Assembly (NCBI GenBank): GCA_017475805.1
Contig: JAFVEW010000111.1
Span: 1 to 16,546 of the forward strand
Length of the DNA: 16,546 bases
Origin: Synergistaceae bacterium
GTDB lineage: Bacteria; Synergistota; Synergistia; Synergistales; Aminobacteriaceae
Direction: 5' to 3'
Part shown: positions 626 through 16,546 of the stretch, piece by piece
How positions within the stretch are numbered: position 1 is the first letter of the stretch
Layout: the number at the start of each line of letters is the position of its first letter
The notes under the pieces: model-generated
What the model was told of the DNA's origin: nothing
Databases searched by the model: none
Seen by the model: the letters and a program-made list of their open reading frames with translations, nothing else
Program-made: the position numbers and the translations under genes

Positions 626-634
626 TTTTAATTC

Positions 635-2242: not shown

Positions 2243-2416
2243 AAATAAATTCTCCTTCCGACAATAATAAAATATTATTAATTTAATTCCTTATTTTTGA
2301 AATTATAATGTATAATCGAAAAAAAATTTTACGCCCGCGTTTGAATTTTATAAAAAATTATTTTTTAGGGTGTAAAATTTACCTGACAAAAAATTAAAAG
2401 GGGCGAAAGGGATTTT
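2243..2416. promoter_or_regulatory. Divergent AT-rich intergenic region with overlapping -10-like elements
   Basis: This spacer separates the DUF4139 gene from the flagellar operon and must hold promoters for both directions. On the + strand there are tandem TATAAT hexamers at 2304-2309 and 2311-2316; on the - strand a TATAAT lies at 2302-2307. No good -35 (TTGACA) is spaced correctly to any of them, and I saw no sigma-54 or sigma-28 consensus. In such AT-rich DNA the hexamers could be chance. A short perfect palindrome, GTAAAATTTAC, lies at 2372-2382 and could be an operator. A + transcript from the 2311 element would have a leader of about 90 nt before the small ORF at 2417. Confidence 0.35.
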
Positions 2417-2479
2417 ATGACCGACGAGCCATTCAGGAAGAAGGCTATGTGTGTCGGCTTGCCAGTATCACATCAATAA
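2417..2479 (+). CDS. Small ORF (20 codons) upstream of fliE, possible leader peptide
   Basis: An ATG at 2417 opens a 20-codon frame (MTDEPFRKKAMCVGLPVSHQ) closed by TAA at 2477-2479. It is preceded by AAAGGGA with about 4 nt spacing, one of the better ribosome binding sites in the window. It is the first translatable start of the flagellar transcript. The peptide matches no flagellar protein I recognise. It may be a translated leader, a remnant of a lost gene, or an accidental ORF. It overlaps a possible GTG start (2449) of a longer fliE reading frame. Confidence 0.3.
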   Translation: MTDEPFRKKAMCVGLPVSHQ

Positions 2480-2550
2480 AATTTGAATATTATGAAGCAT
2501 ATCGACGGAGCGAGAAGAATAAATTATTTGACCGGGAGGCTTACGACCCA

Positions 2551-2898
2551 ATGGATCGACTTTTAATAGATTTTTCACAAGTATATGGACAAAACGAACC
2601 TCAAAGAGCAACGAGGAGCGTTTATAACACTCAAGCATCACCACTAAAAGACCCCGACAAAACGCAGGAAACTCCGCGTATTTCGTTCGAGGATATGCTT
2701 TCAAACTCAATCAAAAACGTAAATAATCTTCAATTAGAAGCTGAAAAAAAAGTTCGAGATATGGCACTCGGGGACGTCGATGATATTTCCGAAGTTGTTT
2801 TAGCATCGTCGAGAGCAGATACAGCTTTAAGACTCGTCATGGAAATGCGAAATAAATTCCTTGACGCTTATCAGGCCTTATCGAGGATAACAGGCTAA
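2551..2898 (+). CDS. fliE: FliE, flagellar hook-basal body adaptor protein
   Basis: FliE joins the MS ring to the proximal rod and is among the first substrates of the flagellar export apparatus. From the ATG at 2551 the protein is 115 aa, close to the usual ~105. The C-terminal two thirds carry the family pattern: an SFEDMLSNSIKNVNNLQLEAE helix, then the conserved turn region ALGDVDDISEVVLASSRAD, then a closing helix LRLVMEMRNKFLDAYQ. The frame continues upstream to a GTG at 2449 (149 aa), but those 34 extra residues do not look like FliE. GGAGG at 2535-2539 sits 11 nt before the chosen ATG, a long but usable spacing. An AAGG also precedes the GTG, so the start is not certain. It heads the flagellar operon; flgB and flgC, which commonly precede fliE, are absent here. 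Confidence 0.88.
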   Translation: MDRLLIDFSQVYGQNEPQRATRSVYNTQASPLKDPDKTQETPRISFEDMLSNSIKNVNNLQLEAEKKVRDMALGDVDDISEVVLASSRADTALRLVMEMRNKFLDAYQALSRITG

Positions 2899-2916
2899 AC
2901 TTTGCGCTAAAAAATC

Positions 2917-4494
2917 ATGGACAGTCTAAGACGCTGGTTAGCCTCGTTCTTAAATTTCTGGGCCGCGTTAAAGCTTTGGCAAAAAGCGTCAATAATCTTA
3001 GCTATTTTATTTGTTTTTGGCGGACTTGGTGCTTTAATTTTTATGACAGGCACCACGAACTACGAGCCCTTATATGCCGGCCTTGAAGTTGCAGATCAGG
3101 CCGCTATTGTTGATTACTTAAAAGAAAATAATCTGCCTTATCGACTCGACTCTAAAGCAAACGCTATTTTAATGCCAGGCAGCGCGGTTTATGAAACTCG
3201 TTTGACACTTGCTCAAATGGGCTTGCCTAAAGGCGGAACGACGGGCTTTGAAATTTTCGATGACTCGAAAATGGGCATGAGCGAATTTCAGCAGAGAATT
3301 GCTTACATGCGCGCAATAGAAGGCGAGTTAGCTCGAACGATTGCACAGATGGCCGCAGTTGAAAATGCCCGAGTCAGTGTTGTTATCCCTGAGCAAAGAT
3401 TATTTTTAGAACAGCAGAAGCCTTCGACAGCTTCTGTTTTATTAAGATTAAGACAAGGCGCAACGATCGGGCCTACACAAGTTAAGTCTATTATGCACTT
3501 AGTCGCTCATAGCGTTGACGGTCTCACTCCTGACTCAGTTACAGTCGTTGACACGAACGGACGAATATTATCCGACATGATTTCGGATAATATGTTCATG
3601 TATAACCCTGACGGGACTAATTCAGTTACTTCCGTTCAAAGAGAGCTTGAAAGACAACATGAACATGAACTTGAAAATAAAGTTCGCGTTATGCTCGAAC
3701 AAGTTTTTGGACCAGGCTCGGCTGTAGTCAGAGTTAAAATTGATTTAGATTTTGACAAGAAAACAAGTTCTTATGTTGAATACACTCCTAACCCTGAGAC
3801 AGGAACAGGCGTCCCACGAAGCAACGAACGTCAAGAAGAAAGTTATACAGGTCAGGGGAATCCAGTCAACGGAAATCCCGGAACGACGACAAATATTCCC
3901 GGTTACGCTATCAACGCTAACACTGTTGAAAGCGAATATAACCGTTCAAACGCTACAACTAACTATGAAATTTCAACAAGAAAAGGCGATCAAGTCGTAA
4001 CGCCCGGCGGCGTACGAAGATTATCAGCTTCAGTCTTAATTGATGATAGAAATAACGATATTACAGAAGAAAGACTCGAAGCGTTGCAGGAAGTAATTTC
4101 TTCAGCAATCGGCTTTAACAGAGAGCGCGGAGACAGTCTCGTCGTTCGTGCTATGAGATTCTCGACAGCTTTTGCTGACTCTATGGCTGAACAAATGCGG
4201 CAGGATAGAATGTGGAAATTAATCTACGGTTCTATCGCGGCTGTATCGGTGTTATTAGTTCTTTTGATAGCATACCTTGTTTGGAGAAGAATGCAGCGTG
4301 CGAAACTTGCCATTCAGGAAATTGAAGCTGAGGGTAAGAAAGTCCCGACGATTCAGGAAATGCTCACGTCGCCTGACTTGCTTGCGTTCCAGGGTGAAAT
4401 GGCGGTGCTTGAAGAACAGCTCAAAGCCTACGCTAAGAGCCATCCTGATGAAATCGCAACACTTGTTAATGAATGGCTATCAGCTGAAAATTAA
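2917..4494 (+). CDS. fliF: FliF, flagellar MS-ring protein
   Basis: FliF forms the inner-membrane MS ring on which rotor, rod and export gate assemble. At 525 aa it is a normal length. There are two membrane segments (about 24-45 and 435-456). Between them lie the YscJ/FliF ring-building domain (about 47-220, starting TTNYEPLYAGLEVAD, with GLPKGGTTGFEIFD and QRIAYMRAIEGELARTI), and the beta-collar region (about 255-420) including a Gly/Asn/Thr-rich loop. The cytoplasmic tail ends in LKAYAKSHPDEIATLVNEWL, the acidic/hydrophobic segment that binds FliG. The ATG lies 18 nt after fliE with no Shine-Dalgarno sequence; the preceding bases are cgctaaaaaatc. This context recurs at fliI and fliJ. fliG follows after a 21-nt gap. 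Confidence 0.97.
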   Translation: MDSLRRWLASFLNFWAALKLWQKASIILAILFVFGGLGALIFMTGTTNYEPLYAGLEVADQAAIVDYLKENNLPYRLDSKANAILMPGSAVYETRLTLAQMGLPKGGTTGFEIFDDSKMGMSEFQQRIAYMRAIEGELARTIAQMAAVENARVSVVIPEQRLFLEQQKPSTASVLLRLRQGATIGPTQVKSIMHLVAHSVDGLTPDSVTVVDTNGRILSDMISDNMFMYNPDGTNSVTSVQRELERQHEHELENKVRVMLEQVFGPGSAVVRVKIDLDFDKKTSSYVEYTPNPETGTGVPRSNERQEESYTGQGNPVNGNPGTTTNIPGYAINANTVESEYNRSNATTNYEISTRKGDQVVTPGGVRRLSASVLIDDRNNDITEERLEALQEVISSAIGFNRERGDSLVVRAMRFSTAFADSMAEQMRQDRMWKLIYGSIAAVSVLLVLLIAYLVWRRMQRAKLAIQEIEAEGKKVPTIQEMLTSPDLLAFQGEMAVLEEQLKAYAKSHPDEIATLVNEWLSAEN

Positions 4495-4500
4495 TTTTAT

Positions 4501-4507
4501 AAAGGAG
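4501..4507 (+). promoter_or_regulatory. Ribosome binding site deciding the fliG start
   Basis: AAAGGAG occupies 4501-4507. The first in-frame start codon of the fliG frame (GTG 4507) overlaps its last base and cannot be used with it. The ATG at 4516 lies 8 nt downstream and is the correct start. The ATG at 4511 is out of frame. Confidence 0.8.
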
Positions 4508-4515
4508 TGCATGAC

Positions 4516-5538
4516 ATGCCCGCAGAAAAAAGTGATGCTAAAGGTCTGACAGGCCGAGAAAAAGTTGCAGTCTTAATGGTTGCACTCGGGGCTGATGTAG
4601 CTCCCGAAGTTTATAAAAGACTCGACGATTCTACGATCGAGTTAATTACGCTTGAAATAGCGAATTTAAGAAAGGTATCGCCCGACGTAAAACTCAGTGT
4701 CTTAAAAGAAGCTCAAGAGATATTAATGGCACGTGAGTTTATGGCGCGCGGAGGTGTTGAATATGCAAGAGATGTTCTTGAAAAAGCTCTTGGCCCGGAG
4801 AGAGCTGCTTCGTTGCTTGCGAGAATCACAGCAAGTTTACAGGTCAAGCCTTTCGATTTTATGAGACATACGGACGCAGGCCAAATTCTTGGCTTCATTC
4901 AGAACGAACACCCGCAGACTATTGCTTTGATTCTTTCTTATTTAGAGCCTCCGCAGGCTGCTATGATTTTGAGCGGTTTGAATCCTATTTTGCAGGCCGA
5001 CGTTACAAAGAGAATTGCAAACATGGACAGAATTACGCCTGAAGTTTTGAGGGAGGTTGAGCGCGTGCTTGAACGAAAATTAAGCAGCATTATGGGACAG
5101 GACTTCACAGTTGCTGGCGGTATCGATGCCGTTGTTGCCATTGTCAACAGTACTGACAGAGCTACAGAACGCAACATTATGGAATATTTAGAAGAAAACG
5201 ATCCCGAACTTGCCGAAGAAATTAAGAAGAGATTATTCGTGTTCGAGGACTCCATGCGGCTTGATGATAGATCACTTCAGCGCGTGTTGCGTGAAGTTGA
5301 CATGAAAGAACTCAGCTTGGCTCTCAAAGGTGCGACAGAAGACCTCAAAACGAAATACCTCAAGAATATGTCGAAACGTGCGGCGGAAATGTTGCAGGAA
5401 GATATGGACTTTATGGGACCGGTGCGCGTGAAAGACGTCGAAGAAGCTCAGCAGAAAGTCGTAAATATTATTCGCGGCCTCGAAGAACAAGGCGAAATAG
5501 TCATAGCGTCTGGCGGAGGAGACGATATGATTGTCTAA
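4516..5538 (+). CDS. fliG: FliG, flagellar rotor/motor switch protein
   Basis: FliG is the rotor protein that links FliF to the C-ring and meets the stator. The protein is 340 aa. The N domain (1-100) binds FliF. The middle domain carries the hallmark EHPQTIALILSYL (131-143). The C domain begins near GGIDAVVAIVN (201) and includes the hinge-like LFVFED (240-245). By alignment from memory to E. coli K264, R281, D288, D289 and R297, all five charged torque positions are present: K271, R288, E295, D296 and R304, with D288 replaced by Glu. It ends in a Gly/Asp tail. The start is the ATG 8 nt after AAAGGAG. The last 8 bases overlap the TTG start of fliH, implying translational coupling. Confidence 0.97.
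   Translation: MPAEKSDAKGLTGREKVAVLMVALGADVAPEVYKRLDDSTIELITLEIANLRKVSPDVKLSVLKEAQEILMAREFMARGGVEYARDVLEKALGPERAASLLARITASLQVKPFDFMRHTDAGQILGFIQNEHPQTIALILSYLEPPQAAMILSGLNPILQADVTKRIANMDRITPEVLREVERVLERKLSSIMGQDFTVAGGIDAVVAIVNSTDRATERNIMEYLEENDPELAEEIKKRLFVFEDSMRLDDRSLQRVLREVDMKELSLALKGATEDLKTKYLKNMSKRAAEMLQEDMDFMGPVRVKDVEEAQQKVVNIIRGLEEQGEIVIASGGGDDMIV
5515..5521 (+). promoter_or_regulatory. Ribosome binding site for fliH inside the end of fliG
   Basis: GGAGGAG at 5515-5521 lies within the last codons of fliG (its Gly-Gly-Gly-Asp tail) and 9 nt before the TTG at 5531. This supports an unusual TTG start for fliH overlapping the fliG stop. Confidence 0.7.
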
Positions 5539-6478
5539 CGTCGCTCATCAGCGCGTGCTGCGAACAGTCAGACTTTTGCCGCAAGCTGTAAAAATCGGTA
5601 TTCTTGAAAGTGAAATTAAACAGTCAGGAACAAAACCTCCTGAGCAGAAACAGGACGCTCCCGCGCTTAAAACAGAAAGGAAGCCCGCACCGCGTCCCCC
5701 TGTTGCTGGGGTTCATGTGAAAATGCCTGAGCAAAATTCAAGAGAAATTGCCGAGTTGACAGCTCAAATTAAAGCCTTGACTAATAGCCTAAGCAACGCC
5801 GAAGTAGCAAACGTTGAATTAACAGAAGCAAAGAAAAAACTTGAAAGCGAAATCGGCGGCATTAAATCAGACTACGAAAAACGCAGAAAGACTCTTGAAT
5901 CCGAAGCTCAAGCTAATGCTAAAAAAATTGCCGACCAAGCCAGAGAAAAAGCCTTAGCCGAAGGTCAAGCCAAAGGCTATGAAGAGGGATTAAAAAAGGC
6001 TCGCGAGGAAATCGAACAGGAATATTTGCAGAAATTTTCAGGGCTCGCAGGAGTTATTGACGGCGTCGGGAAAAAATTAGATGAGAATTTCGCTGAACTT
6101 GTGAAACTTCATCAGCCTAAAATGATTCGTATGTGGACGGAAATGTTAAAGAGAATGCTTTTCCGTCAGGTTGAATTAAATCCCGACACTATTGATTCTG
6201 TTTTATCGGAATTATTGTCGCGGCTCAGTGATAAGAATCAAATTTTGATTTACGCCTCGCCCGATGACGCTAAAAAACTTGAAGGCGAACTCGATACGAA
6301 ATTTCAAGAAGCTCTGCGCGGAGCTAAAAGGGTTGAGGTGAAAGTTGACCCTAATGTCCAAGACGGAAGCTGTATTGTTGAAACTTCTTTAGGCGTTTAT
6401 GATGCTCGTTGGCGGACACAGCTTAATCAAATTGAATCTGTAGTCGATGAAATTTTCCAGCAGTCTTCAAAAGGATAA
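5531..6478 (+). CDS. fliH: FliH, flagellar export ATPase regulator/stator
   Basis: FliH binds and restrains FliI and ties it to the C-ring. The 315-aa product is longer than the usual ~230 aa because of an N-terminal extension. Residues 1-25 form a basic segment (VLRTVRLLPQAVKIG) and ~30-65 are Pro/Lys/Gln-rich. A long coiled coil covers ~70-170 and contains the FliH/YscL-type GxxxGxxxG repeat at G145, G149 and G153. The C-terminal V-ATPase-E-like domain runs ~185-310 (MLKRMLFRQVELNPDTI, DPNVQDGSCIVETSLGVYDAR). The gene begins with TTG overlapping the fliG stop by 8 nt, with a strong internal ribosome binding site, and ends 10 nt before fliI. Confidence 0.92.
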   Translation: MSNVAHQRVLRTVRLLPQAVKIGILESEIKQSGTKPPEQKQDAPALKTERKPAPRPPVAGVHVKMPEQNSREIAELTAQIKALTNSLSNAEVANVELTEAKKKLESEIGGIKSDYEKRRKTLESEAQANAKKIADQAREKALAEGQAKGYEEGLKKAREEIEQEYLQKFSGLAGVIDGVGKKLDENFAELVKLHQPKMIRMWTEMLKRMLFRQVELNPDTIDSVLSELLSRLSDKNQILIYASPDDAKKLEGELDTKFQEALRGAKRVEVKVDPNVQDGSCIVETSLGVYDARWRTQLNQIESVVDEIFQQSSKG

Positions 6479-6488
6479 AAAATAAATC

Positions 6489-7835
6489 ATGAATGACGTA
6501 GAAGATGTAGATTTATTTCAATTATTTTCCGTAGATTTACTTCAAAAGCCTTTAGTAAAAATTAACGGGCGAATAGTTCAGGTTGTTGGACTTGTCGCAG
6601 AGTCGCAAGGCCCTGATGTTCGAGTCGGCGATTTATGTCATATATGTTTCAGGGACGGCTCTCACGAACTTGACGCTGAAGTCGTAGGATTTCGAGATGA
6701 CAGAGTTTTATTAATGCCTCTTGGAGCTTTGCAGGAGGTCGGTCCCGGCTGTGATGTCGTTTCAACTAACAGACCTCTTGAAGTTCCCGTCGGCGATGCT
6801 CTGCTTGGCCGAGTACTTGACGGTCTTGGCAATCCTATTGATGACAAAGGGCCGATAGCAGCGACTGATTTTTATCCGTTATATGCTACGCCGCCGCACC
6901 CATTAAGGCGCAAAATGGTAGATACGCCGCTTTCTGTTGGCGTTCGAGTCGTTGACGGAATGCTGACGCTCGGCAAGGGACAGCGAATAGGAATTTTTGC
7001 AGGCTCAGGCGTCGGCAAAAGTACTTTACTCGGAATGATGGCGCGCTACACGACTGCAGACGTTAATGTAATTTCATTGGTCGGTGAACGAGGCCGTGAA
7101 GTTCGTGAATTTATTGAACGCGATTTAGGGCCTGAAGGTTTGAAGCGTTCTGTTTTAGTTATAGCTACGTCGGATCAGCCTGCTTTGATAAGATTGAAAT
7201 CAGCAATGACAGCGACGGCAATCGCCGAATATTTCAGAGATCAAGGCAAAGATGTTTTATTAATGATGGACACAGTAACCCGTGTAGCTCGCGCTCAACG
7301 TGAAATCGGTCTTGCTATCGGCGAACCTCCTGCAACTCGCGGCTATACTCCTTCAGTTTTTGAGATGCTGCCGAGATTATTAGAGCGTGCTGGCGCAGGT
7401 GAAGTTGGAAGCATAACAGGAATTTATACTGTCTTAGTTGACGGCGACGACATGAACGAACCTGTAGCCGATAATGTCAGGGGTATTCTTGACGGTCATA
7501 TAGTTTTATCGCGAAAAATTGCCGCAAGAAATTTTTATCCCGCCGTCAGCGTTCTTGATAGCGTCAGCCGAGTTATGCCAGCCTTAGTCTCACGAGAACA
7601 TTTAGATGCCGCCGGAAGAGTTCGTGATTTACTTGCGACTTATGCCGAAGCCGAAGACTTAATTAATATCGGTGCATATAAATCCGGCTCAAACATGCGC
7701 GTCGATTGGGCATTAGCGAACATGGAAGAAGTTAGAAGTTTTTTATCACAGCGTGTTGAAGACCCTACAAGTTTTGAAGAAACTGATAAAAGATTATTAA
7801 ATTTAGCTCCGTATCCGGCACAGCAAGAAAATTAA
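6489..7835 (+). CDS. fliI: FliI, flagellum-specific type III export ATPase
   Basis: FliI is the F1-beta-like hexameric ATPase that unfolds and feeds flagellar export substrates. It is full length at 448 aa. A beta-barrel N domain (about 20-95) is followed by the Walker A loop AGSGVGKST (171-179), the GERGREV segment (199-205), Walker B VLLMMD (256-261) and the signature GEPPATRGYTPSVFEMLPRLLERAG (278-302), with the conserved Arg and Glu residues in place. The closing LLATYAEAEDLINIGAY region is also typical of FliI/YscN. The ATG follows fliH by 10 nt. The nearest AAGGA is 13 nt upstream, too far for a normal Shine-Dalgarno, and the start context is aaataaatcATG. A toxin-antitoxin pair separates it from fliJ, its usual partner. 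Confidence 0.97.
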   Translation: MNDVEDVDLFQLFSVDLLQKPLVKINGRIVQVVGLVAESQGPDVRVGDLCHICFRDGSHELDAEVVGFRDDRVLLMPLGALQEVGPGCDVVSTNRPLEVPVGDALLGRVLDGLGNPIDDKGPIAATDFYPLYATPPHPLRRKMVDTPLSVGVRVVDGMLTLGKGQRIGIFAGSGVGKSTLLGMMARYTTADVNVISLVGERGREVREFIERDLGPEGLKRSVLVIATSDQPALIRLKSAMTATAIAEYFRDQGKDVLLMMDTVTRVARAQREIGLAIGEPPATRGYTPSVFEMLPRLLERAGAGEVGSITGIYTVLVDGDDMNEPVADNVRGILDGHIVLSRKIAARNFYPAVSVLDSVSRVMPALVSREHLDAAGRVRDLLATYAEAEDLINIGAYKSGSNMRVDWALANMEEVRSFLSQRVEDPTSFEETDKRLLNLAPYPAQQEN

Positions 7836-7866
7836 TTTTTTATATTTTTTAAGGAGAGTAAAAATC

Positions 7867-8151
7867 ATGAGCACAATAACGTTAGATATTGCCCCTGAAG
7901 TAATTGAAAAAGCTGAAGATGTCTTCAAAAGAAAGGGAATGTCGTATTCTCAATTTTTAAGGGATATAACAGAAAAAGCTATCATGGATCTTTCAGACCC
8001 TGAAGAGTTACCAGTTCCCTGTATTGATGATTTAACCGAAGAAGAACTTGACGAGATGATTCAAAAATCTTTAGATAAAATCGAAGCAGGCCATTATTAC
8101 ACCTCAGAAGAAATGATCGAAAGGATAAAGAGATATGGAGTCGATCTTTAG
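7867..8151 (+). CDS. RelB/DinJ-type antitoxin
   Basis: This 94-aa protein has an N-terminal ribbon-helix-helix-like segment (ITLDIAPEVIEKAEDVFKR, then a GMSYSQFLRDITEKAI helix, about 4-40). An acidic C-terminal tail follows (about 45-94), ending EEMIERIKRYGVDL. This is the layout of RelB/DinJ antitoxins, which bind operator DNA through the N-domain and neutralise the toxin with the tail. AAGGAG lies 10 nt before the ATG. The 3' end overlaps the toxin gene by 17 nt, the classic antitoxin-first arrangement. The pair lies in the same orientation inside the flagellar operon, between fliI and fliJ, so the antitoxin may repress its own promoter there or be read with the flagellar genes. No clear separate promoter was seen in the 31-nt gap before it. 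Confidence 0.82.
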   Translation: MSTITLDIAPEVIEKAEDVFKRKGMSYSQFLRDITEKAIMDLSDPEELPVPCIDDLTEEELDEMIQKSLDKIEAGHYYTSEEMIERIKRYGVDL

Positions 8152-8446
8152 TATTCATTATTCTGAAGATTTTGAAGAGGATTTGCGTAGCATATATACG
8201 CACATTGCTTATAGTCTTCAAAATCCTTTTGCTGCATCAGAACATATGAACGTGATTATCTCAGCTACTGAGGCTCTTAGAATCTTTCCCAAAATTCATA
8301 GAGTTCGCAGAAAAAAATCATGCAAAGAAATTCGCGTCGTTCCTGTAAAAAATTTCAATATTCTATATTCTGTAGATGATGAAAAAGCCGTTGTGAATAT
8401 TCTTCATATTTTATATGCTCGTCGCAATATTGATTCGCTTCCGTAA
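8135..8446 (+). CDS. RelE/ParE-superfamily toxin
   Basis: The 103-aa basic protein matches the RelE/ParE toxin pattern. It has an N-terminal strand and helix (FSIHYSEDFEEDLRSIYTHIAY), then NPFAASEHMNVIISATEALRIFP (the P..A...... L..FP core), then VRRKKSCKEIRVVPVKNFNILYSVDDEKAVVNILHILYARR. That last stretch gives the strand pattern ending in the Y-x-v-(5-8)-v-x-I-x-x-I-h-h-R-R motif. RelE members cut mRNA at the ribosome and ParE members poison gyrase; sequence alone does not settle which applies. AAGGA lies 9 nt before the ATG, within the antitoxin gene, and the coding regions overlap by 17 nt. No frameshift or truncation is seen, so the module looks intact. fliJ starts 14 nt after it. Confidence 0.85.
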   Translation: MESIFSIHYSEDFEEDLRSIYTHIAYSLQNPFAASEHMNVIISATEALRIFPKIHRVRRKKSCKEIRVVPVKNFNILYSVDDEKAVVNILHILYARRNIDSLP

Positions 8447-8460
8447 AAAATTTTTTAATC

Positions 8461-8910
8461 ATGCAGCAGCGTATAGCAAGATTCAATCGAATATTAAAAA
8501 TCCGTGAAGACAGCCGTCGTAACGAGCAAGCAATTTTAGCCGCCGAACGCAGCGAAGAACGTGCCGTGATTAATCATATAACTAAACTCGAAGGCGAAAA
8601 AGCTCAAGCTATCCAAGATTTCAGCACGACTGGAAGCAAAATGATTTCAGCGACGGACTTATGGTTTCAAAGACAATTTATTGACGCTATTGACACAGAT
8701 ATTGTTAAAGATAAAAATTCATTAGACGAAGTTCGCGTTAGAATATCTAACACCGAAGCGAGGCTCGTCGAAAAACATAAAGACGTTCGAGTCATGGAGA
8801 CTTATATAGATCACTTAAAAGAAATAAATTTTCAGGAACAATTAGGAATAGAACAAAATGAACTTGATGATGTCGCTACGATGCAATATTCAAGGAAAGG
8901 AGCTCATTAA
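8461..8910 (+). CDS. fliJ: FliJ, flagellar export coiled-coil protein
   Basis: FliJ is the coiled-coil stalk and escort protein that sits in the FliI ring. The 149-aa product is almost entirely alpha-helical and charged, from RIARFNRILKIREDSRRNEQ to RLVEKHKDVRVMETYIDHLKE, and is the usual length for FliJ. FliJ is weakly conserved, so the call rests on its start (RFNRILKIRE resembling the FliJ N-terminal F-x-x-v-L-x-x-r), its coiled-coil nature and its place after fliI. The ATG has no Shine-Dalgarno sequence (cgtaaaaaattttttaatcATG) and follows the toxin by 14 nt. Its 3' end contains the ribosome binding site for the next gene. Confidence 0.85.
   Translation: MQQRIARFNRILKIREDSRRNEQAILAAERSEERAVINHITKLEGEKAQAIQDFSTTGSKMISATDLWFQRQFIDAIDTDIVKDKNSLDEVRVRISNTEARLVEKHKDVRVMETYIDHLKEINFQEQLGIEQNELDDVATMQYSRKGAH
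8896..8902 (+). promoter_or_regulatory. Ribosome binding site for the TTG-started transglycosylase gene
   Basis: AAAGGAG at 8896-8902 lies inside the last codons of fliJ, 11 nt before the TTG at 8914. No ATG or GTG start closer to it is in frame, so this decides the TTG start. Confidence 0.6.
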
Positions 8911-8913
8911 AAA

Positions 8914-9483
8914 TTGATCGGTCCGAATTTCACGAATATAAATAGAATTTTATCCCGCATTGACGAGATTAATCGTCAGTTTAATTTATATCAGCAGCAA
9001 GATAACGCGCCGGTTAAAAGTCGATTCGTTGATGTTCTTAATGACGTTGAAAAAATTAAAAATAAATCAAAATCTAAAAATATTTCAGGCAAAACAAGCT
9101 ACGCTGAACTTAAAAGCGTCATTGACGAATGTGCTGAAAAATATAATATCGATAACGAATTAATCCGCGCCATGATTCAAGTCGAGTCAGGCTGGAACAC
9201 TGACGCAGTTTCTAATAAGGGCGCGCAGGGTTTAATGCAGTTAATGCCAAGAACGGCCGCAATGTTAGGAGTTGATGATCCTTTTGACGCTGAACAAAAT
9301 ATTGAAGGCGGCGTAAGATATATTTCAGATTTAACTGATAAATATCGCGGCGATATTGAAAAAGCTCTCGCTGCTTACAACGCTGGTCCGGCGCGAGTCG
9401 ACTCAGGAAATATTCCGGACGTTTCAAAACGTTACGTAAAAAATATCATGGCAATTTATCGTAAATTAAGGGAGATTAGTTAA
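8914..9483 (+). CDS. Flagellar-operon lytic transglycosylase (SLT/LT1-type muramidase)
   Basis: This is a 189-aa protein with a C-terminal soluble-lytic-transglycosylase domain (about 70-189). The catalytic glutamate is E91 in AMIQVESGWN, followed by the family blocks GAQGLMQLMPRTA (103-115), ALAAYNAGPARV (151-162) and the RYVKNI helix. Such enzymes cut peptidoglycan glycan strands, leaving 1,6-anhydro-muramyl ends. Here the likely job is opening the wall for the rod, as FlgJ does in proteobacteria. The N-terminal ~65 residues (NFTNINRILSRIDEINRQF, then a Lys/Ser linker) contain no Sec signal or membrane segment, so export through the flagellar apparatus is plausible but inferred. The TTG start is supported by an AAAGGAG in the end of fliJ. 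The stop lies 1 nt before the next ATG. Confidence 0.88.
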   Translation: MIGPNFTNINRILSRIDEINRQFNLYQQQDNAPVKSRFVDVLNDVEKIKNKSKSKNISGKTSYAELKSVIDECAEKYNIDNELIRAMIQVESGWNTDAVSNKGAQGLMQLMPRTAAMLGVDDPFDAEQNIEGGVRYISDLTDKYRGDIEKALAAYNAGPARVDSGNIPDVSKRYVKNIMAIYRKLREIS

Positions 9484-9484
9484 T

Positions 9485-10195
9485 ATGGCTGAAGAAAGAC
9501 CCGCACCCGCAGCTCCTGCTGGAGATCAAGCTCAAGCTCCTGCAAGCGAACCCGTAGTGCGAAAAAAGAAAAAGAAAAAAAAGCTAGGAAAATTAACTTT
9601 TTTATTTTGGCTGCTTCTTCTCGGACTCGGTACAGCAACAGGAATGCACCTAAGCGGAATTTGGGACGGACGGCCGTTATTTTGGACAATTATTCCTAAT
9701 ATTCCTTACGTCGGCAAACAATTAGCGGAATTTTTCCAAGTCCCTGAATTTTATGCTCTCAGTGTCGGCGAACGTCGAGCAGTTGAGCTTGAACAATGGC
9801 AAAGGCGGCTTGACGCTCAAGAACGCGAGCTTGAAAATCGTGATGTCGAACAGATGACAGTCTACGAAAACCGCGAACTTGCTCTCGTTGAAATGTCGAG
9901 GGATGTTTCGAGAGCTCAAAGACGTTTAAGAACTCAACAGGCCGAAATTGCTGCTCAAGGAAATGAAGAAGGAGCTTCAGCGGAAGAGCAAGAATTAATG
10001 AATCAGGTTGCACGAACTTATCGCGAAATGTCCGCACGAAATGCTGCTGCCGTTGTCGAACAGTTAAGGGATTCTCTTGCTGTCGAGCTTATGATGAAGC
10101 TCCCGAACGATGTCAGGGCTTCAATTTTAGGCAAATTAAAACCTACAAAGGCCGCAAGAATCACTGAATTAATGTCCCGTCCGCAACAAAGATAA
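9485..10195 (+). CDS. MotE/FlbB-like membrane-anchored coiled-coil flagellar protein
   Basis: The 236-aa protein starts with an Ala/Pro-rich cytoplasmic tail (1-24) and a run of seven lysines (27-33). One membrane segment follows (about 36-56), then a linker (IWDGRPLFWTIIPNIPYVGKQ), a long charged coiled coil (about 95-165) and a C-terminal helical MgtE-N-like domain (about 172-236, VVEQLRDSLAVELMMKLPNDVRASILGKLKP). This architecture is shared by MotE chaperones and by spirochete FlbB, the collar protein that recruits periplasmic motor parts. Spirochetes encode FlbB at the corresponding place between fliJ and the hook genes. A stator-collar role in the periplasm is therefore likely but inferred. 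GGGAG lies 10 nt upstream of the ATG, and only 1 nt separates it from the transglycosylase stop. Confidence 0.75.
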   Translation: MAEERPAPAAPAGDQAQAPASEPVVRKKKKKKKLGKLTFLFWLLLLGLGTATGMHLSGIWDGRPLFWTIIPNIPYVGKQLAEFFQVPEFYALSVGERRAVELEQWQRRLDAQERELENRDVEQMTVYENRELALVEMSRDVSRAQRRLRTQQAEIAAQGNEEGASAEEQELMNQVARTYREMSARNAAAVVEQLRDSLAVELMMKLPNDVRASILGKLKPTKAARITELMSRPQQR

Positions 10196-10231
10196 TTTAA
10201 TTTTTAATTTTTTAGGAGGCTTTATTTAATA

Positions 10232-11173
10232 ATGGATATCGAGTATTTATTATTTTTGCAAAATTTCAGAAACAGCATTAATGACGCTTGGACTCCTTTC
10301 ATGGAGTGGATTTCGTACTTCGGAATAAGAAATATAATTCTTTTGCCGATTTTTGTTTACTGGTGTCTCGACAAACGCAAAGGCCAATTTATTTTCGCGG
10401 CTTGGAAAATCAGCCAGACTATTAACTCTATAGTTAAACTTACGGCTTGTGTTTATCGTCCTTGGATCAGAGATTCAAGAATCCTTCCTGCGGGCGACGC
10501 AATAACAACGGCAACGGGCTATTCATTTCCGAGCGGTCATACGATGATGGCGACTCCCATTTATGGCGGCCTCGCTTGCATTACGAAAAATAAAATCGCA
10601 ACTGTTTTTTGGGTCGCTTTGATTTTGACGACGATGTTTTCACGAAATTATTTAGGCGTTCATACTCCCCAAGATGTTCTTGTCGGAGCAGTACTCGGCG
10701 CGGCGTCGATCTATATTGCTAAGAAATTTTTAGAATTTCTCGACAGAAAGCCTGAAAAATTCGGCTTAGCTATGTTATTTTTAGGACTTTTCGGAGCTTT
10801 GACGCTTCTTTACGTTATGTGCAAGCCTTATCCGATGGATTATGTTGACGGAAAATTATTAGTCGATCCGGCTAAAATGACTCCCGACGCTTGGGGCGAT
10901 GCCGGCGGAATGGTTCCGCTCGCTATTGCTTGGTACATTGAGGAACGCTGGGTTAAATTTGAGGCTACGGGCTTCAACGTTAAGGGCGTTATTTTAACTT
11001 TAATCGGACTTGCTATTGTAGCTTGGATGACAGAAGACCTTAAAAATATTTGCAACGCTTCTTTCGGACGTTCTGTAGGAAAATTAGCTTATCAATTTGC
11101 GTTCTTCTTTTTTGTCATGGTCATTTGGCCGATAATTATAAAAATGTTCACTGCACAGAAAAAGGAGAATTAA
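10232..11173 (+). CDS. PAP2-family membrane phosphatase
   Basis: The 313-aa multi-spanning membrane protein carries all three PAP2 phosphatase motifs: KLTACVYRP (K69, R76, P77), PSGH (100-103) and SRNYLGVHTPQD (R138, nucleophile H144, D148). All catalytic residues are present. The C-terminal third adds three or more membrane helices beyond the core domain, so the protein is longer than minimal PAP2 enzymes. The family dephosphorylates lipid phosphates or pyrophosphates such as phosphatidate or undecaprenyl pyrophosphate; the substrate cannot be told here. It lies in the flagellar operon between the MotE/FlbB-like gene and fliK, with AGGAGG 12 nt before the ATG and only 6 nt to fliK, so it is part of the transcript. 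It is not a standard flagellar gene. A role in local wall or lipid recycling, or mere passenger status, are both open. Confidence 0.88.
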   Translation: MDIEYLLFLQNFRNSINDAWTPFMEWISYFGIRNIILLPIFVYWCLDKRKGQFIFAAWKISQTINSIVKLTACVYRPWIRDSRILPAGDAITTATGYSFPSGHTMMATPIYGGLACITKNKIATVFWVALILTTMFSRNYLGVHTPQDVLVGAVLGAASIYIAKKFLEFLDRKPEKFGLAMLFLGLFGALTLLYVMCKPYPMDYVDGKLLVDPAKMTPDAWGDAGGMVPLAIAWYIEERWVKFEATGFNVKGVILTLIGLAIVAWMTEDLKNICNASFGRSVGKLAYQFAFFFFVMVIWPIIIKMFTAQKKEN

Positions 11174-11179
11174 TTAATA

Positions 11180-12805
11180 ATGGCTGATTTATTAACGTTT
11201 ATCGATATTCAGACGCAAGCACCGCAGCAGGTAAATTCAAATTCTAACAATAATAATTCGAGCGGCGAGCCCGGAGTCTTTGACGCTCTTATGAACGAAT
11301 ATACAACGCCCGAAAATTTAGAGGCGGAAAATATTCAGACGGAATTAAATGAAGTAAATTTAATCGCGTTCAAAGGGAGCAAATTATTTTCAAGCTCAGT
11401 CATCGAAATTCTTGCGGATTCAAACGCGCCGGAAAATCTTGAAACGTTAAACATCAGCGATGAAATTCAAAATTTAGTTGACGAATTAAAAATTTCTCTC
11501 GGCAAAGTTAAGGATTCTCAGCCTGAAGTTTTTTATGAAGACGAAGAAATAAAATTTAACGATGAAATTTCGCAGCTTTTGAATCTTTCGGACGAAGAAT
11601 TAAACGCAAAATTAAATTCTTTGCCCGAAGATTTAAGAGTCGAAATAAAAAATCTTATCGACGAAATTAATAACGCTCTTGAAAACGGCGGCGATATGAC
11701 CGCTATAAAATCTTCAGTTGAAAAATTAACGAGCTTAATCGGAAAAACAGAAAATAAAATTAAGCCCGAAAATAAAAAAATTTTGGACGAAGAATCAGAC
11801 GATAAAAAAGAAATTAAAGATGACGAAGGCCAAGAGCCTGAATTAATTTCAGCTGAAGCCGCAGGGGTTGCTGCTGTGAACGTCAATGTTGATAATAAAA
11901 TCACAGAAACAAACGCTAAAGCAGAGTCCGAAAAAAATCTTGATGTTAAAGATTCAACGCCGCGTCAAAATTCAAAAATCCCTGTTCAGAATCAGAACGC
12001 TGAAAACGAAATTAAAGCAGACGAACAAGAAAAGCCTATTCAAAAGTTCGACGAGCTAATTAAAAATAGAGCAGAAAAAAATTCTCAAAACGAATTAGAA
12101 TCTGAAAACGAAAATAAAAATAAAAATTTCGATTTCAATCAAGACGAAAATCAAGCGGGCAATCATGAAAATTTTTCAGGTTCTCGAAACGGATCGCGCT
12201 CAAGAAATGAAAACCGCAGAGTCTCAAACGATAATTCACGCGATAACGAAAGAAATTCAGACTCTACAACTCACAGAACGGAATCGCGAAATGATTTTCA
12301 AAGTTTCTTCGAGGGTGTCTTAAACAGCCGCAGAGCTTCGGGAAATTCTGAAATTTCATCACAGCCGTTAAACCTTCGCGGAGCTTTTAATCTTAATCAA
12401 AGCGAAACTCTTAGAAACGGCCTCGTCAATGTCGTAAGATTTATTCGAGCCGACGGAGTTCAAAAAGCAAACGTCGTTATTGATCCGCCAGCACTCGGAA
12501 GAATCTCTGTAGAACTTACTTCAAGCTCTTCAGGAGTTGAGGCTTCAATTAAAGTAGCAAGTGAGCAAATCCGACAATTAGTGCAAGACCAATTAACCCA
12601 GCTTAGAATGAATTTGTCTGAACAGGGCGTTCAAGTCGCTGAATTTACAGTTGACGTCCAGCAGGATAATCAACAGGGCAGCGGCTCTCAAAATGAAAAT
12701 CAGCAGGACAGACGCGAAAATTTCATCGGCGGGATTGAAGAAGACGACGACACTGAAGAATTTAGAGTCGATTTAGAAGAAGGATTATTATATTGGGTAG
12801 CATAA
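11180..12805 (+). CDS. fliK: FliK, flagellar hook-length control protein
   Basis: FliK is the secreted molecular ruler that stops hook growth and switches export specificity. The 541-aa protein has the expected shape: a poorly conserved N-terminal part, a long low-complexity middle, and a conserved Flg_hook domain near the C-terminus (about 410-500). The domain reads LRNGLVNVVRFIRADGVQKA, then VVIDPPALGRISVELTSSS (P-x-LG core), then VASEQIRQLVQDQLTQLRMNLSEQGVQVAEFTVDV. The middle (about 185-400) is rich in Asn, Glu, Lys, Ser and Arg. An Asn/Ser run occupies about 20-29. The ATG lies 6 nt after the PAP2 stop, with AAAGGAG 12 nt upstream. An 80-nt spacer with no evident signal precedes flgD. 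Confidence 0.88.
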   Translation: MADLLTFIDIQTQAPQQVNSNSNNNNSSGEPGVFDALMNEYTTPENLEAENIQTELNEVNLIAFKGSKLFSSSVIEILADSNAPENLETLNISDEIQNLVDELKISLGKVKDSQPEVFYEDEEIKFNDEISQLLNLSDEELNAKLNSLPEDLRVEIKNLIDEINNALENGGDMTAIKSSVEKLTSLIGKTENKIKPENKKILDEESDDKKEIKDDEGQEPELISAEAAGVAAVNVNVDNKITETNAKAESEKNLDVKDSTPRQNSKIPVQNQNAENEIKADEQEKPIQKFDELIKNRAEKNSQNELESENENKNKNFDFNQDENQAGNHENFSGSRNGSRSRNENRRVSNDNSRDNERNSDSTTHRTESRNDFQSFFEGVLNSRRASGNSEISSQPLNLRGAFNLNQSETLRNGLVNVVRFIRADGVQKANVVIDPPALGRISVELTSSSSGVEASIKVASEQIRQLVQDQLTQLRMNLSEQGVQVAEFTVDVQQDNQQGSGSQNENQQDRRENFIGGIEEDDDTEEFRVDLEEGLLYWVA

Positions 12806-12885
12806 AGACAAGTAGGAGTTAGGAAGTAGATGTAAAATGCTGTCCGTAAGATTTATAGAAAAGTTTTAGAAAGGGAAAATGAAAA

Positions 12886-13338
12886 ATGCCGGTAACGAAT
12901 ACAAATAGCTATACAGACCTCACTAATTTAAGCGTAACAAATCCAACTACGACATCAACATCAACAGCAAGTGCCGTTACGACTGCAACTAATAATGAAC
13001 TTGGAAAGGACGCTTTTTTGAAATTATTAATCGCGGAACTTTCTAATCAAGACCCGACTAACCCCGTAGAAGACAGAGAATTTATTTCACAGATGGCTAC
13101 GTTCTCGACACTTGAAGAAATGCAGAACATGAACTCAACACTTACGACAATGGCCGATGCTAATAAATTCTCAGCAGTAAGTTATATCGGCAAGGCTGTA
13201 GCTTTCACTAACGACGAAGGTAAACAAGTTCCCGCGCTCGTCAACGCTATATGGTTCGAGAACGGCAAAACTATTCTTGATACATCAGAAGGCGACGTGC
13301 CGCTTGAAAAAGTTGAAGGAATTTCAGAATTAAGCTAA
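12886..13338 (+). CDS. flgD: FlgD, flagellar hook cap/scaffold protein (short form)
   Basis: FlgD caps the growing hook and is needed for FlgE polymerisation. The 150-aa protein has a Thr/Ser/Asn-rich N-terminus (1-35) and the family core LGKDAFLKLLIAELSNQDPTNPVEDREFISQMATFSTLEEMQNMN (about 38-83). A small beta segment follows (VSYIGKAVAFTNDEGKQVPALVNAIWFENGKTIL). The larger Ig-like domains of the ~230-aa enterobacterial form are missing, as in other short FlgD proteins. GAAAGGG lies upstream of the ATG. An ATG 7 nt earlier is out of frame and stops quickly. The gene sits directly before flgE, the usual order. Confidence 0.93.
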   Translation: MPVTNTNSYTDLTNLSVTNPTTTSTSTASAVTTATNNELGKDAFLKLLIAELSNQDPTNPVEDREFISQMATFSTLEEMQNMNSTLTTMADANKFSAVSYIGKAVAFTNDEGKQVPALVNAIWFENGKTILDTSEGDVPLEKVEGISELS

Positions 13339-13427
13339 ATTAAAATTCTCACGGACGAGACAAAAGGCAGGAAGCAGGAGAACGCCCGCCTATAATAATA
13401 TCTAAATTAAGAAAGGAAAATTAAAAA
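13339..13427 (+). promoter_or_regulatory. flgD-flgE spacer with a -10-like element
   Basis: The 89-nt spacer is long for this operon and contains TATAAT at 13391-13396, directly after GCCCGCC. No matching -35 lies 16-18 nt upstream, so an internal promoter for the abundant hook protein is only a possibility. Two copies of GCAGGA occur close together at about 13367-13379. AAAGGAAA about 8 nt before the flgE ATG is the ribosome binding site. Confidence 0.25.
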
Positions 13428-15848
13428 ATGTTAAGATCATTGATGACAGCAGTAACGGGTGTTCGTGCTCATCAGACCATGCTCGACGTTACAGGCAACA
13501 ACATAGCAAACGCAAACACAACAGGATTCAAAAAAGACGCAACAATTTTCGCCGACTTAATGTATCAGGCGAATAAATACGCTTCGGGCGCAGGCGACTC
13601 TCGCGGCGGTATCAACCCTGCTCAAGTCGGTTTAGGCGTCAGCGTATCGGCAATCGAAACTATACACACTCAAGGCTCAGGCTCATTCACCGGCAACCCG
13701 TCGGACATGATGATTCAAGATAAAGGCTTCTTTGTTTACAAAGACGGAAATTCACAGCTTTTCAGCCGTTCGGGCGCATTAGTCCTTGACGGCAACAGCG
13801 ACATGGTTTTATCAGGTCAAGGCTATCAGCTTCAGGGTTATAAGATGGAAGAAACTCCGCTTGAAGGCTATCAGCAGGCGGCAGACCTTTCGACAGTCAA
13901 TATTCCGTTAGGTCAAAAAATTGACGCAAAAGCTACAACAAGAGTAGATTATCAATGCAACCTTGACAGCAGAAGCAGCGCGTATCTTTCTTACGGTTTC
14001 GCGGACTTACCTTTCAATGCCGTCGCTGGCTGGAATGGAAACCCGACGGGTACAGCAAAGATAACCATGGACGGCAATGAATACGATATGAGCTTTTTAA
14101 CGGATTTTAACGCTACAGCCAACGCTGACACGAGCGGAGTAAATTATTTGAACATTACTATTGCGAACGGCGATAGTGAGACTCAAGTTACTTTCGATAT
14201 GGTCGATGTGGACTCTGCAACGGGACTTCCTAAGTTAGCTTTACCTAAGCTCAATGCAGGAACGGCTATAACGGGTTCGCAAACCGCAGGAACAAATAAT
14301 TTTGTAGGCTGGCTCTCGCCGAGCATGACTTTTGTAAGCGATCCAACCACTGTAGCGGCGGGAACCTCGCAGGATGTTTTGAATCAATACATTCCCGTTT
14401 ATCAATTCCCTGGACAAGTGCCTCCGACTTATTTTGCTGCGCAGTATGATGACACTACAGGTACGTTAAAACTTCGCAATGTTGACTTTACTGCTGCTGA
14501 TCCTACAAATCCTGTCCTTGATATTAACTCTACGAATATCAAAGCAAATCCGACGCTTTTCACATATAATATTAAAGACAATATGAACTATACAGGTTTT
14601 CAGCTTTCAGGAGCTTTGACACTTCCGGGAGCGACTGAGCAGACGAATGTTTCATATAGTTTTATTGCAGAATTTGACGAGAGTGTCAGCGTCGAGGACG
14701 GATTAAGTTCAGAACTTGCGAAAATGTCCTCGCGCGTGTCCCTTTGGTATTACGGTTTAAGCAATGCCGATAATGGTGTTGCTGACGCAGTGCCTTCGAT
14801 GCACAAATTGGACGCTACGGTTTACTTCAATGCAGACGGAACTTTTGACAGCGTTGAATGGAACGATGTCGATAATAATAACGCTCCGTTAGGTTACAGA
14901 ATCGTTGATGATGCTACACTTGGCGCGGCAAACTTTAGAATTAACGTCGGTCAGTCAAGCCAAGCCTCAAGCAAAACGGATACGTTAGTCTTCCAGCAGG
15001 CTCAGAACTTGGACAATCCTGCGAGCAAATGGGACACTCAAGGCACCGTTTATCAGGGCGGCTATCACGCAACGAAGATGACGATTTACGATGACAACGG
15101 CAAAGATCACACTCTCGAAGTTTCATTCAAGAAAATCACAGAAAACCGCTGGCGTTGGGAAGCATTCATAGTTGAACAAGATTCCTCTGGCGCAGACATA
15201 ATGTCAAATATTATTCCTAACCCAAGTTCAGGAGAAATTGAATTTGACGGCTCAGGCCGAATCAGCAACGCCGTTACAAGTAACGAAGACAGGCGCGGCG
15301 ACGGCAATGACAGATACCCGAACGCTGAAGTCGAAATCAATATTCCGTTCAGCCTTAACGGCCAGCCTAACAGCACCGTAACTTTGAACTTCGGTGGCGG
15401 AGTCGGCAGCGGCGGCAGTGCTCTTGAGGGTGTTACACAGTTTGCTTCTGAAACAACGACAAAGCCGATTTATCAGGACGGCTACACGATGGGAATTTTG
15501 AAGAGTTATTCTGTAGCAGTTGATGGAACAATTACAGGTTCATATGACAACGGCGTAAACATTCCGCTTTACCGCGTGGCTCTTGCTACTTTCGCAAACG
15601 AACAAGGACTCGAAAAGGTCGGCAACACAATGTTCAAAGCGTCAGTAAACTCCGGCAATCCTAATATTGACGGCGCGACTACAAACGGTAAAGGTTCAAT
15701 AATGTCGCAATATGTCGAGATGTCGAACGTCGATTTAACAGAAGAATTTACTCACTTGATAATCGCTCAAAGAGGTTTCCAAGCAAACGCTCGAACGGTT
15801 ACAGTCAGCGATCAGATTCTTGAAGAAGTCGTGAACTTAAAGAGATAA
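13428..15848 (+). CDS. flgE: FlgE, flagellar hook protein (large form, predicted crosslinked)
   Basis: FlgE polymerises into the hook, the universal joint between rod and filament. Both ends are canonical: the N-terminal rod-type helix and motif (LRSLMTAVTGVRAHQTMLDVTGNNIANANTTGFKK, 2-36) and the C-terminal D0 helix (MSNVDLTEEFTHLIIAQRGFQANARTVTVSDQILEEVVNL). At 806 aa it is about twice the ~400 aa of enterobacterial FlgE; the extra length is in the central surface domains (about 190-640). The whole protein contains one cysteine, C177 in VDYQCNLD, with K164 exactly 13 residues before it and N178 next to it. That matches the Lys-Cys-Asn arrangement reported for lysinoalanine crosslinking of Treponema hooks. 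The gene ends the operon and is followed by a strong terminator. Confidence 0.95.
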   Translation: MLRSLMTAVTGVRAHQTMLDVTGNNIANANTTGFKKDATIFADLMYQANKYASGAGDSRGGINPAQVGLGVSVSAIETIHTQGSGSFTGNPSDMMIQDKGFFVYKDGNSQLFSRSGALVLDGNSDMVLSGQGYQLQGYKMEETPLEGYQQAADLSTVNIPLGQKIDAKATTRVDYQCNLDSRSSAYLSYGFADLPFNAVAGWNGNPTGTAKITMDGNEYDMSFLTDFNATANADTSGVNYLNITIANGDSETQVTFDMVDVDSATGLPKLALPKLNAGTAITGSQTAGTNNFVGWLSPSMTFVSDPTTVAAGTSQDVLNQYIPVYQFPGQVPPTYFAAQYDDTTGTLKLRNVDFTAADPTNPVLDINSTNIKANPTLFTYNIKDNMNYTGFQLSGALTLPGATEQTNVSYSFIAEFDESVSVEDGLSSELAKMSSRVSLWYYGLSNADNGVADAVPSMHKLDATVYFNADGTFDSVEWNDVDNNNAPLGYRIVDDATLGAANFRINVGQSSQASSKTDTLVFQQAQNLDNPASKWDTQGTVYQGGYHATKMTIYDDNGKDHTLEVSFKKITENRWRWEAFIVEQDSSGADIMSNIIPNPSSGEIEFDGSGRISNAVTSNEDRRGDGNDRYPNAEVEINIPFSLNGQPNSTVTLNFGGGVGSGGSALEGVTQFASETTTKPIYQDGYTMGILKSYSVAVDGTITGSYDNGVNIPLYRVALATFANEQGLEKVGNTMFKASVNSGNPNIDGATTNGKGSIMSQYVEMSNVDLTEEFTHLIIAQRGFQANARTVTVSDQILEEVVNLKR

Positions 15849-15872
15849 TGAATTAGATTTAGAATAAATAGA

Positions 15873-15904
15873 GCCCCTTGTCGAAAACGGCAGGGGCATT
15901 TTTT
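15873..15904 (+). terminator. Intrinsic terminator after flgE
   Basis: GCCCCT (15873-15878) pairs with AGGGGC (15892-15897). Inside this stem, after one bulged T, GTCG pairs with CGGC (one T-G wobble), leaving an AAAA loop. The hairpin is followed by ATTTTTT (15898-15904). It begins 24 nt after the flgE stop and marks the end of the flagellar transcript. The convergent tspO gene ends 7 nt beyond it. In the - direction the hairpin is followed only by a broken T tract, so it is weaker there. Confidence 0.9.
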
Positions 15905-15910
15905 GTTAAT

Positions 15911-16378
15911 TTAATTAAGAATCCAAACTGAAAAATTTAAGTATGAGGCAAACAATAGCCATAGCCAATATGGAATTTGCAAATAAGCAGCAAGTTTGTC
16001 AACTTTTAGAAACGCAAAAAACATCATAGTTACACACATAACAAGCACTATTATCCATAAGAATGCTGCACCAAATAATTTGAACGAAAAAAATAAAAAG
16101 CACCAGCCGAAGTTAAAAAATAACTGAATTAAAAAAAGTCCTAATGCTCTTGTTCGTTCTTTTGAGGAAGGTGTGATAAAAATTTTGGCAGCTCCATAAC
16201 CCATAAGTGCATATAAAATAGTCCATACAACAGGAAAAATAACAGGCGGAGGCGATAACAAAGGTTTAACAGTCTCGGCACTGTAAAGCCGCACACCACT
16301 CCGAGTCAAAATTCCTGCGGTAATCCCTACCGCTTCAGACAAAAAAATCCAGAAAGCAAAAATTTTCAAGTTTTTCAT
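15911..16378 (-). CDS. tspO: TspO/MBR-family membrane protein (tryptophan-rich sensory protein)
   Basis: From the ATG at 16378 the protein is 155 aa, the normal TspO length; a GTG four codons upstream (16390) would give 159. Five membrane helices are visible. TspO landmarks are the PPPVIFPVVWTILYALMGYGA loop and helix (about 43-63), NFGWCFLFF in helix 3, and the aromatic C-terminus IPYWLWLLFASYLNFSVW. The family binds porphyrins and related ligands and has been linked to tetrapyrrole and stress control in bacteria; no specific role follows from context. No Shine-Dalgarno sequence precedes either start. An intrinsic terminator of the upstream gene lies only 5 nt before the GTG, leaving no room for a separate promoter between them. 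Confidence 0.88.
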   Translation of the reverse strand: MKNLKIFAFWIFLSEAVGITAGILTRSGVRLYSAETVKPLLSPPPVIFPVVWTILYALMGYGAAKIFITPSSKERTRALGLFLIQLFFNFGWCFLFFSFKLFGAAFLWIIVLVMCVTMMFFAFLKVDKLAAYLQIPYWLWLLFASYLNFSVWILN

Positions 16379-16394
16379 ATTCAAGCGCACGGTT

Positions 16395-16432
16395 AAAAAA
16401 ATGCAGGAAGACTCACGTTAAGCACTTCCTGC
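16395..16432 (-). terminator. Intrinsic terminator between the sugar permease and tspO
   Basis: Read on the - strand, GCAGGAAG (16432-16425) pairs perfectly with CTTCCTGC (16410-16403) around a 14-nt loop, followed by A and seven Ts (16401-16395). It begins 15 nt after the permease stop. It lies immediately upstream of tspO, so it separates the transporter transcript from tspO or acts as a partial (attenuating) terminator. Confidence 0.82.
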
Positions 16433-16446
16433 AAACAAATTCAGAT

Positions 16447-16546
16447 TTATTTTCTGCGATATTTCGTTAAGTCTATTGCAACTGCGACCGCGATGATAAC
16501 GCCTTTGATAACCTGCTGCCACATCGGCGATACGTTTATAAACTGA
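16447..16546 (-). CDS. mglC: Sugar ABC transporter permease, MglC-like, partial (C-terminus only)
   Basis: The last 32 codons and the stop (TAA at 16449-16447) of a - strand gene entering from beyond the window. The residues FINVSPMWQQVIKGVIIAVA followed by VAIDLTKYRRK match the C-terminal end of galactose/methyl-galactoside (MglC) and ribose-type (RbsC) ABC permeases: an amphipathic WQQVIKG segment, the last membrane helix, then D-x-x-K-Y and a basic tail. The K-Y-R-R-K ending is closer to MglC than RbsC as I remember them. This protein would be the inner-membrane channel of a CUT2-type monosaccharide importer. The rest of the transporter operon would lie outside the window. Confidence 0.72.
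   Translation of the reverse strand, partial: QFINVSPMWQQVIKGVIIAVAVAIDLTKYRRK

Follow-up and report, generated by a model that had tools for sequence, protein, structure and literature searches.

The hook protein gene and its candidate crosslink site

The window analysed here, a stretch of 16,546 nucleotides from a Synergistaceae bacterium (contig JAFVEW010000111.1, positions 1 to 16,546), carries flgE, the gene for a flagellar hook protein of 806 amino acids (13428..15848, + strand) with rod-type ends, D1 and D2 domains and a large insert splitting D2. The Pfam models FlgE_D2 (residues 546–686), Flg_bbr_C and Flg_bb_rod all matched above cut-off, as did the NCBIfam model of the FlgEFG subfamily; the NCBIfam FlgE models matched below cut-off. 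The AlphaFold2 model of the protein matches solved hook proteins, and its D2 fold corresponds to that of Treponema denticola FlgE. Residues 162–179, GQKIDAKATTRVDYQCNL (translation of 13911–13964, + strand), had been proposed in an earlier, sequence-only reading to form a lysinoalanine crosslink site of the type known from spirochetes.

In T. denticola, which has periplasmic flagella, hook lysinoalanine has been demonstrated experimentally; for window FlgE it is predicted from the sequence. As described in passages of PMC10691653 and PMC9254593, the reaction is self-catalysed: upon oligomerisation, Cys178 loses H2S to give dehydroalanine, to which Lys165 of a neighbouring subunit adds. Lys165, Cys178, Asn179, Thr334 and Lys336 are the residues marked in the relevant part of the 2023 study (PMC10691653). 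As reference for numbering, the solved T. denticola chain 6ndx_B was used with the Lys of its GQK motif set as 165, so that the Cys-column residue, an Ala in 6ndx_B, receives number 178 and the STTK motif spans 333–336. The alignment with window FlgE is free of gaps from IPxGQK through NLD and places K164 (13917..13919, +), the predicted lysinoalanine nucleophile, on K165, C177 (13956..13958, +), the predicted dehydroalanine precursor, on C178, and N178 (13959..13961, +) on N179. The near-identity to T. denticola in spacing and numbering that had been pointed out thus holds column by column. It extends beyond the residues named earlier to T677-T678-K679 (15456..15464, +), which align with the T334-T335-K336 motif, so that the Lys165, Asn179, Thr334, Thr335 and Lys336 columns of T. 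denticola FlgE (PDB 6NDT, 6NDV, 6NDW, 6NDX) read the same in window FlgE. With the Lys165, Cys/Ser178, Asn179, Thr334 and Lys336 columns and the D2 fold beside the site, window FlgE, judged by its sequence, carries a spirochete-type Lys–Cys crosslink site.

Translation of the 806-residue frame bears out that C177 is the only cysteine, that N178 follows it and that K164 lies 13 residues before it; the protein has 28 lysines. If the lone cysteine were placed at random, it would fall on the crosslink column with a chance of 1/806, and, with the Lys column matched as well, of about 4e-5 (arithmetic from these counts). The named Treponema homologues, of 463 residues, are much shorter than window FlgE. 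Leptospira hook proteins also resemble it: Lys, Asn and the T-T-K motif are kept in the L. borgpetersenii protein, but Ser takes the place of Cys and several Lys partners are described in part of PMC10691653; window FlgE has Cys, and three other Synergistota copies have Ser. The FlgE of Campylobacter jejuni (5JXL; 851 residues in the solved chain) is likewise large and carries inserts, but its Cys column is occupied by Ala and its Lys column by His, and a passage of PMC9254593 attributes the stiffness of its hook to extra domains that add contacts.

A FlgE similarity search of genome contigs yielded 19 relative loci, the closest with 86% identity, all assigned to Synergistales, Synergistaceae or Fretibacterium and mostly from ruminant sources; the organism is therefore to be placed in Synergistota, and the non-spirochete host that had been considered only conditionally is the actual case. 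Seventeen of the 19 loci cover the site, and each of them has both the Cys and the Lys. Gene order was retained in 13/13 relatives examined. In the window, the flagellar operon runs fliE, fliF, fliG, fliH, fliI, a RelB/RelE-like pair and fliJ, followed by a lytic-transglycosylase-like gene, a gene for an MgtE_N-domain protein, a PAP2 phosphatase gene, fliK (hook-length control; 11180..12805, +; Pfam Flg_hook above cut-off), flgD (hook cap; 12886..13338, +; Pfam FlgD above cut-off; adjoining flgE in 13/13 relatives) and flgE itself. The RelB/RelE-like toxin-antitoxin pair (7867–8446) sits between fliI and fliJ. Homologues occupy the same position in 10/13 close relatives, at 31–62% identity as compared with 78–98% for fliI and fliJ; at L002, L003 and L012 no such pair was found, and fliJ directly follows fliI. 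The PAP2-type phosphatase gene (10232–11173), located between the MgtE_N-domain gene and fliK, was found in 0/13 of the relatives' stretches.

Conservation and joint loss of the site residues

A FlgE family search over 149 Synergistota genomes gave a match in 111, some of which (e.g. G061, G089, G092) contained only short frames of rod-protein size. The site could be read in 101 genomes, comprising 99 of the 149-genome sample, G007 and the genome of locus L010. From 110 rows, L100 and L037 were dropped, since each duplicates a second row from its genome and looks like part of one gene split at contig ends, leaving 108 copies; loci short of the site (such as L016, L019, L038 and L101) and within-genome repeats of the same site were left out of the counts. 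Column percentages, TTK counts and the FlgE tree used for losses predate the removal of L100 and L037.

The site reads Lys-Cys-Asn in 96 of the 108 copies, Lys-Ser-Asn in three, Val-Cys-Asn in three and Thr-Cys-Asn in two, and four have neither Lys nor Cys/Ser. Taken by column, this amounts to Lys in 99/108 copies, Cys in 101, Ser in three, Asn in two and Gly in two (Cys or Ser in 104/108), and Asn at the N178 column in 108/108. The TTK motif is present in 79/94 copies with the motif aligned, and six copies have Lys and Cys but lack K336. All of the best 120 matches of a Synergistota FlgE profile have Lys, Cys and Asn, although these matches are not an independent sample. The source-named proteins among them are, as we take it, from Synergistota, their genus placement being partly assumed.

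As to the lone cysteine, taken earlier as a sign of selection, the site column is 93% Cys, whereas the runner-up among 430 profile columns reaches 15% (106 copies). Its singleness is a trait of this protein and not of the group, as FlgE proteins of relatives have up to three additional cysteines, gained and lost among them. K168, suggested as a second lysine candidate, was rejected as lysine partner, since its column has Lys in just 63/108 Synergistota copies and otherwise mostly Arg, His or Asn.

Several loci depart from the single-gene arrangement. Seven Synergistota genomes have two different FlgE copies (L025, L027, L028, L031, L033, L035, L071/L072), and in three of these one copy keeps Cys and has Val at the Lys column. 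FlgE-matching frames of 1,342 to 1,547 residues occur in G039, G057, G086 and G088 (L027, L026, L029 and L028, respectively). In G032, flgE parts (profile 1–118 and 104–430; L129, L144) lie in two separate frames about 1.4 kb apart, and the gene may therefore be interrupted or duplicated.

For comparison, the best 120 matches of a profile built from six FlgE proteins (Thermomicrobium, Acetoanaerobium, Curtobacterium, Listeria, Salmonella, Priestia) served as the other-phyla set; much of this set lies close to Thermomicrobium, and thinning at 75% identity left 42 other-phyla rows, the named ones included. Further sampling came from flagellar genes in a plasmid collection; with coverage of this extent, some other phyla may also carry the site. 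At the Cys column, the 120 proteins have Gly (114), Ser (3), Asn (2) or Gln (1) and never Cys; Lys occurs in 0/120 at the Lys165 column and in 2/120 at the Lys336 column, and Thr in 2/120 at the Thr335 column (Ala 72, Val 21). No Cys was found in any of ten named non-spirochete species aligning over the site, of which one has a Lys at the Lys165 column (Azospirillum, adjacent to a gap) and another a Lys at that of K336 (Burkholderia); Aeromonas, Pseudomonas and Cupriavidus, which align poorly at the site, were set aside and have no Cys in the stretch. Stray host FlgE was also sought on the viral contigs of IMG/VR; of 49 pattern matches, none was confirmed. The spirochete set, in contrast, has Cys in 25/120 and Ser in 95/120, with Lys in 120/120 and Thr335 and Lys336 in 119/120 each.

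Asn179, by comparison, is found in 120/120 and Thr334 in 65/120 of the other-phyla proteins, and N178 and T334 were therefore dropped as evidence for the site; the weight initially given to N178 was misplaced, as the residue was present in all FlgE counted and does not discriminate. By these alignments, Asn178/179 is a general hook feature, and the crosslinking type is distinguished by Lys165, Cys/Ser178, Thr335 and Lys336, so that T678 and K679 of window FlgE are both discriminating residues.

The pattern of losses bears on whether these residues act together. Among the 108 copies, 99 have both Lys and Cys/Ser, five have Cys/Ser without Lys, none has Lys without Cys/Ser, and four have neither (Fisher test, p 2e-5, kinship ignored). 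These four read Thr/Gly, Gln/Asn, Glu/Asn and Glu/Gly at the Lys and Cys columns, respectively, two of them thus having Gly at the Cys column, and they have Ala or Val at T335, which are the usual letters elsewhere. Such joint loss of Lys, Cys/Ser and T335 is expected of residues that take part in a single reaction. K336, however, is retained in 4/4 loss copies, so the loss spares some site residues. On a 95-row Synergistota FlgE tree, calculated with the site columns excluded, three changes of Cys/Ser and six of Lys were counted, and the losses of Cys/Ser with Lys and T335 represent two to three separate events. Two of the independent pairs lie on supported branches and change in the same direction; with so few events, a kinship-aware test fell short of significance. 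Three of the five copies with Cys and without Lys are the second flgE in genomes whose other copy has Lys; as a guess, a mixed hook in such two-copy genomes could still be linked.

Proposed crosslinking reaction and alternative explanations

We consider it likely that window FlgE is a lysinoalanine-forming hook protein whose subunits are joined in an external flagellum, and that this trait is general in Synergistota. The proposal builds on the residues, their alignment columns, their conservation and joint loss, and the compatible D2 fold, from which we infer the reaction, the pairing of subunits and a mechanical role. Once exported and assembled, one subunit would lose H2S from its C177 by beta-elimination, forming dehydroalanine, to which K164 of a neighbouring subunit would add, yielding lysinoalanine; the hook would thereby become a single covalent polymer. 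T678 and K679 would be part of the site, as are T335 and K336 in T. denticola.

Retention of C177 for packing, as a free thiol or for an inter-subunit disulfide, without formation of lysinoalanine, appears unlikely. Such a role would suit the structural conservation of the stretch around C177, given that N178 is invariant in other phyla too, and the occurrence of other cysteines in several Synergistota FlgE. However, the prevalence of Gly at the Cys column in other phyla indicates that Cys is dispensable for the fold, and the joint loss of Lys and T335 with Cys speaks against such a role as well. Moreover, three Lys-keeping copies have Ser instead of Cys, and Ser can make lysinoalanine, as reported for Leptospira in part of PMC10691653, but no disulfide.

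Very improbable, in our view, is a different covalent bond between K164 and C177, for example a nitrogen-oxygen-sulfur bridge acting as a redox switch. Formation of such a bridge needs an oxidant. Lys–Cys bridges of this type are reported as widespread in a passage of PMC8964421, but the T335 and K336 partners shared with the T. denticola site and the three copies with Ser argue against one here, and an anaerobic lifestyle is described for the three Synergistota species consulted (PMC3035242, PMC3035263, PMC3910556). That the site is a chance occurrence, or that the contig is contaminating or misassigned, has a negligible probability, considering that 19/19 FlgE-similar loci belong to Synergistales, Synergistaceae or Fretibacterium, that gene order is kept in 13/13 and that the site is conserved over the sampled genomes of the phylum.

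External flagella and origin of the site

The gene of the L-ring protein, flgH, was found in 104/149 Synergistota genomes. Among the 92 genomes with a Lys–Cys FlgE, FlgH was present in 84 and not found in six; the remaining two (G007 and the L010 genome) may lie outside the sample searched for FlgH. Lateral flagella are described, in the parts of the respective reports consulted, for Thermanaerovibrio acidaminovorans (PMC3035242), Dethiosulfovibrio peptidovorans (PMC3035263) and Thermanaerovibrio velox (PMC3910556), and the site is present in a T. velox protein (P0091) and in a D. peptidovorans protein from a metagenome-assembled genome (P0111). Since FlgH is common in Synergistota and three species of the phylum are described with lateral flagella, the trait would belong to flagella that extend outside the cell. 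By its Synergistota relatives, the FlgH found in most genomes of the phylum sample and the three species described with lateral flagella, the host of window FlgE is set apart from the spirochetes with periplasmic flagella.

The phylogenetic position of the protein family was assessed on a FlgE tree calculated without the site columns from 22 Synergistota and 17 spirochete rows together with FlgE of other phyla, the window being represented in a further tree of 110 rows by its relatives L001 and L012 and not by a row of its own in the former. Synergistota FlgE proteins formed one group (support 92/95) and spirochetes another (100/100), which contained 0/22 Synergistota rows; the spirochete proteins grouped with 16 other-phyla FlgE (83/86), apart from Synergistota, and the corresponding branch of the 110-row tree had a support of 90. 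The site may have arisen in parallel, been transferred, or descended from a deep ancestor with later losses. A single crosslinking FlgE lineage common to spirochetes and Synergistota, whether by descent or by transfer, would be compatible with lysinoalanine formation in window FlgE, and we give it somewhat less than an even chance. It would explain the shared Lys, Cys, T335 and K336 and fits the ranking of ten named hook proteins by the Synergistota profile, in which Leptospira came top with 499 bits and Thermomicrobium second with 451. Forcing Synergistota and spirochetes together cost 9.5 log units and was not rejected by the approximately unbiased (AU) test (p 0.297), but the groupings in both trees speak against it. 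That lysinoalanine hooks arose or persisted separately in the external flagella of Synergistota is a tentative proposal, to which we assign close to an even chance; the trait would then track hook load and not the periplasm, and several joint losses of Lys, Cys and T335 would have returned some lineages to the ordinary Gly and Ala.

The 2023 study, in the parts consulted (PMC10691653), retrieved FlgE of all bacteria, analysed those of spirochetes alone and terms the modification a spirochete adaptation, and a literature search for lysinoalanine hooks outside spirochetes found no report. If the crosslink is formed in Synergistota, it can no longer be claimed as specific to spirochetes, and its occurrence in a phylum of which some members are described with lateral flagella would require another kind of explanation, such as the load on the hook or its durability. 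Crosslinked hooks could readily be compared with plain ones in the natural loss lineages, and cultured Synergistota such as T. velox would serve as a model whose cells are not built around endoflagella.
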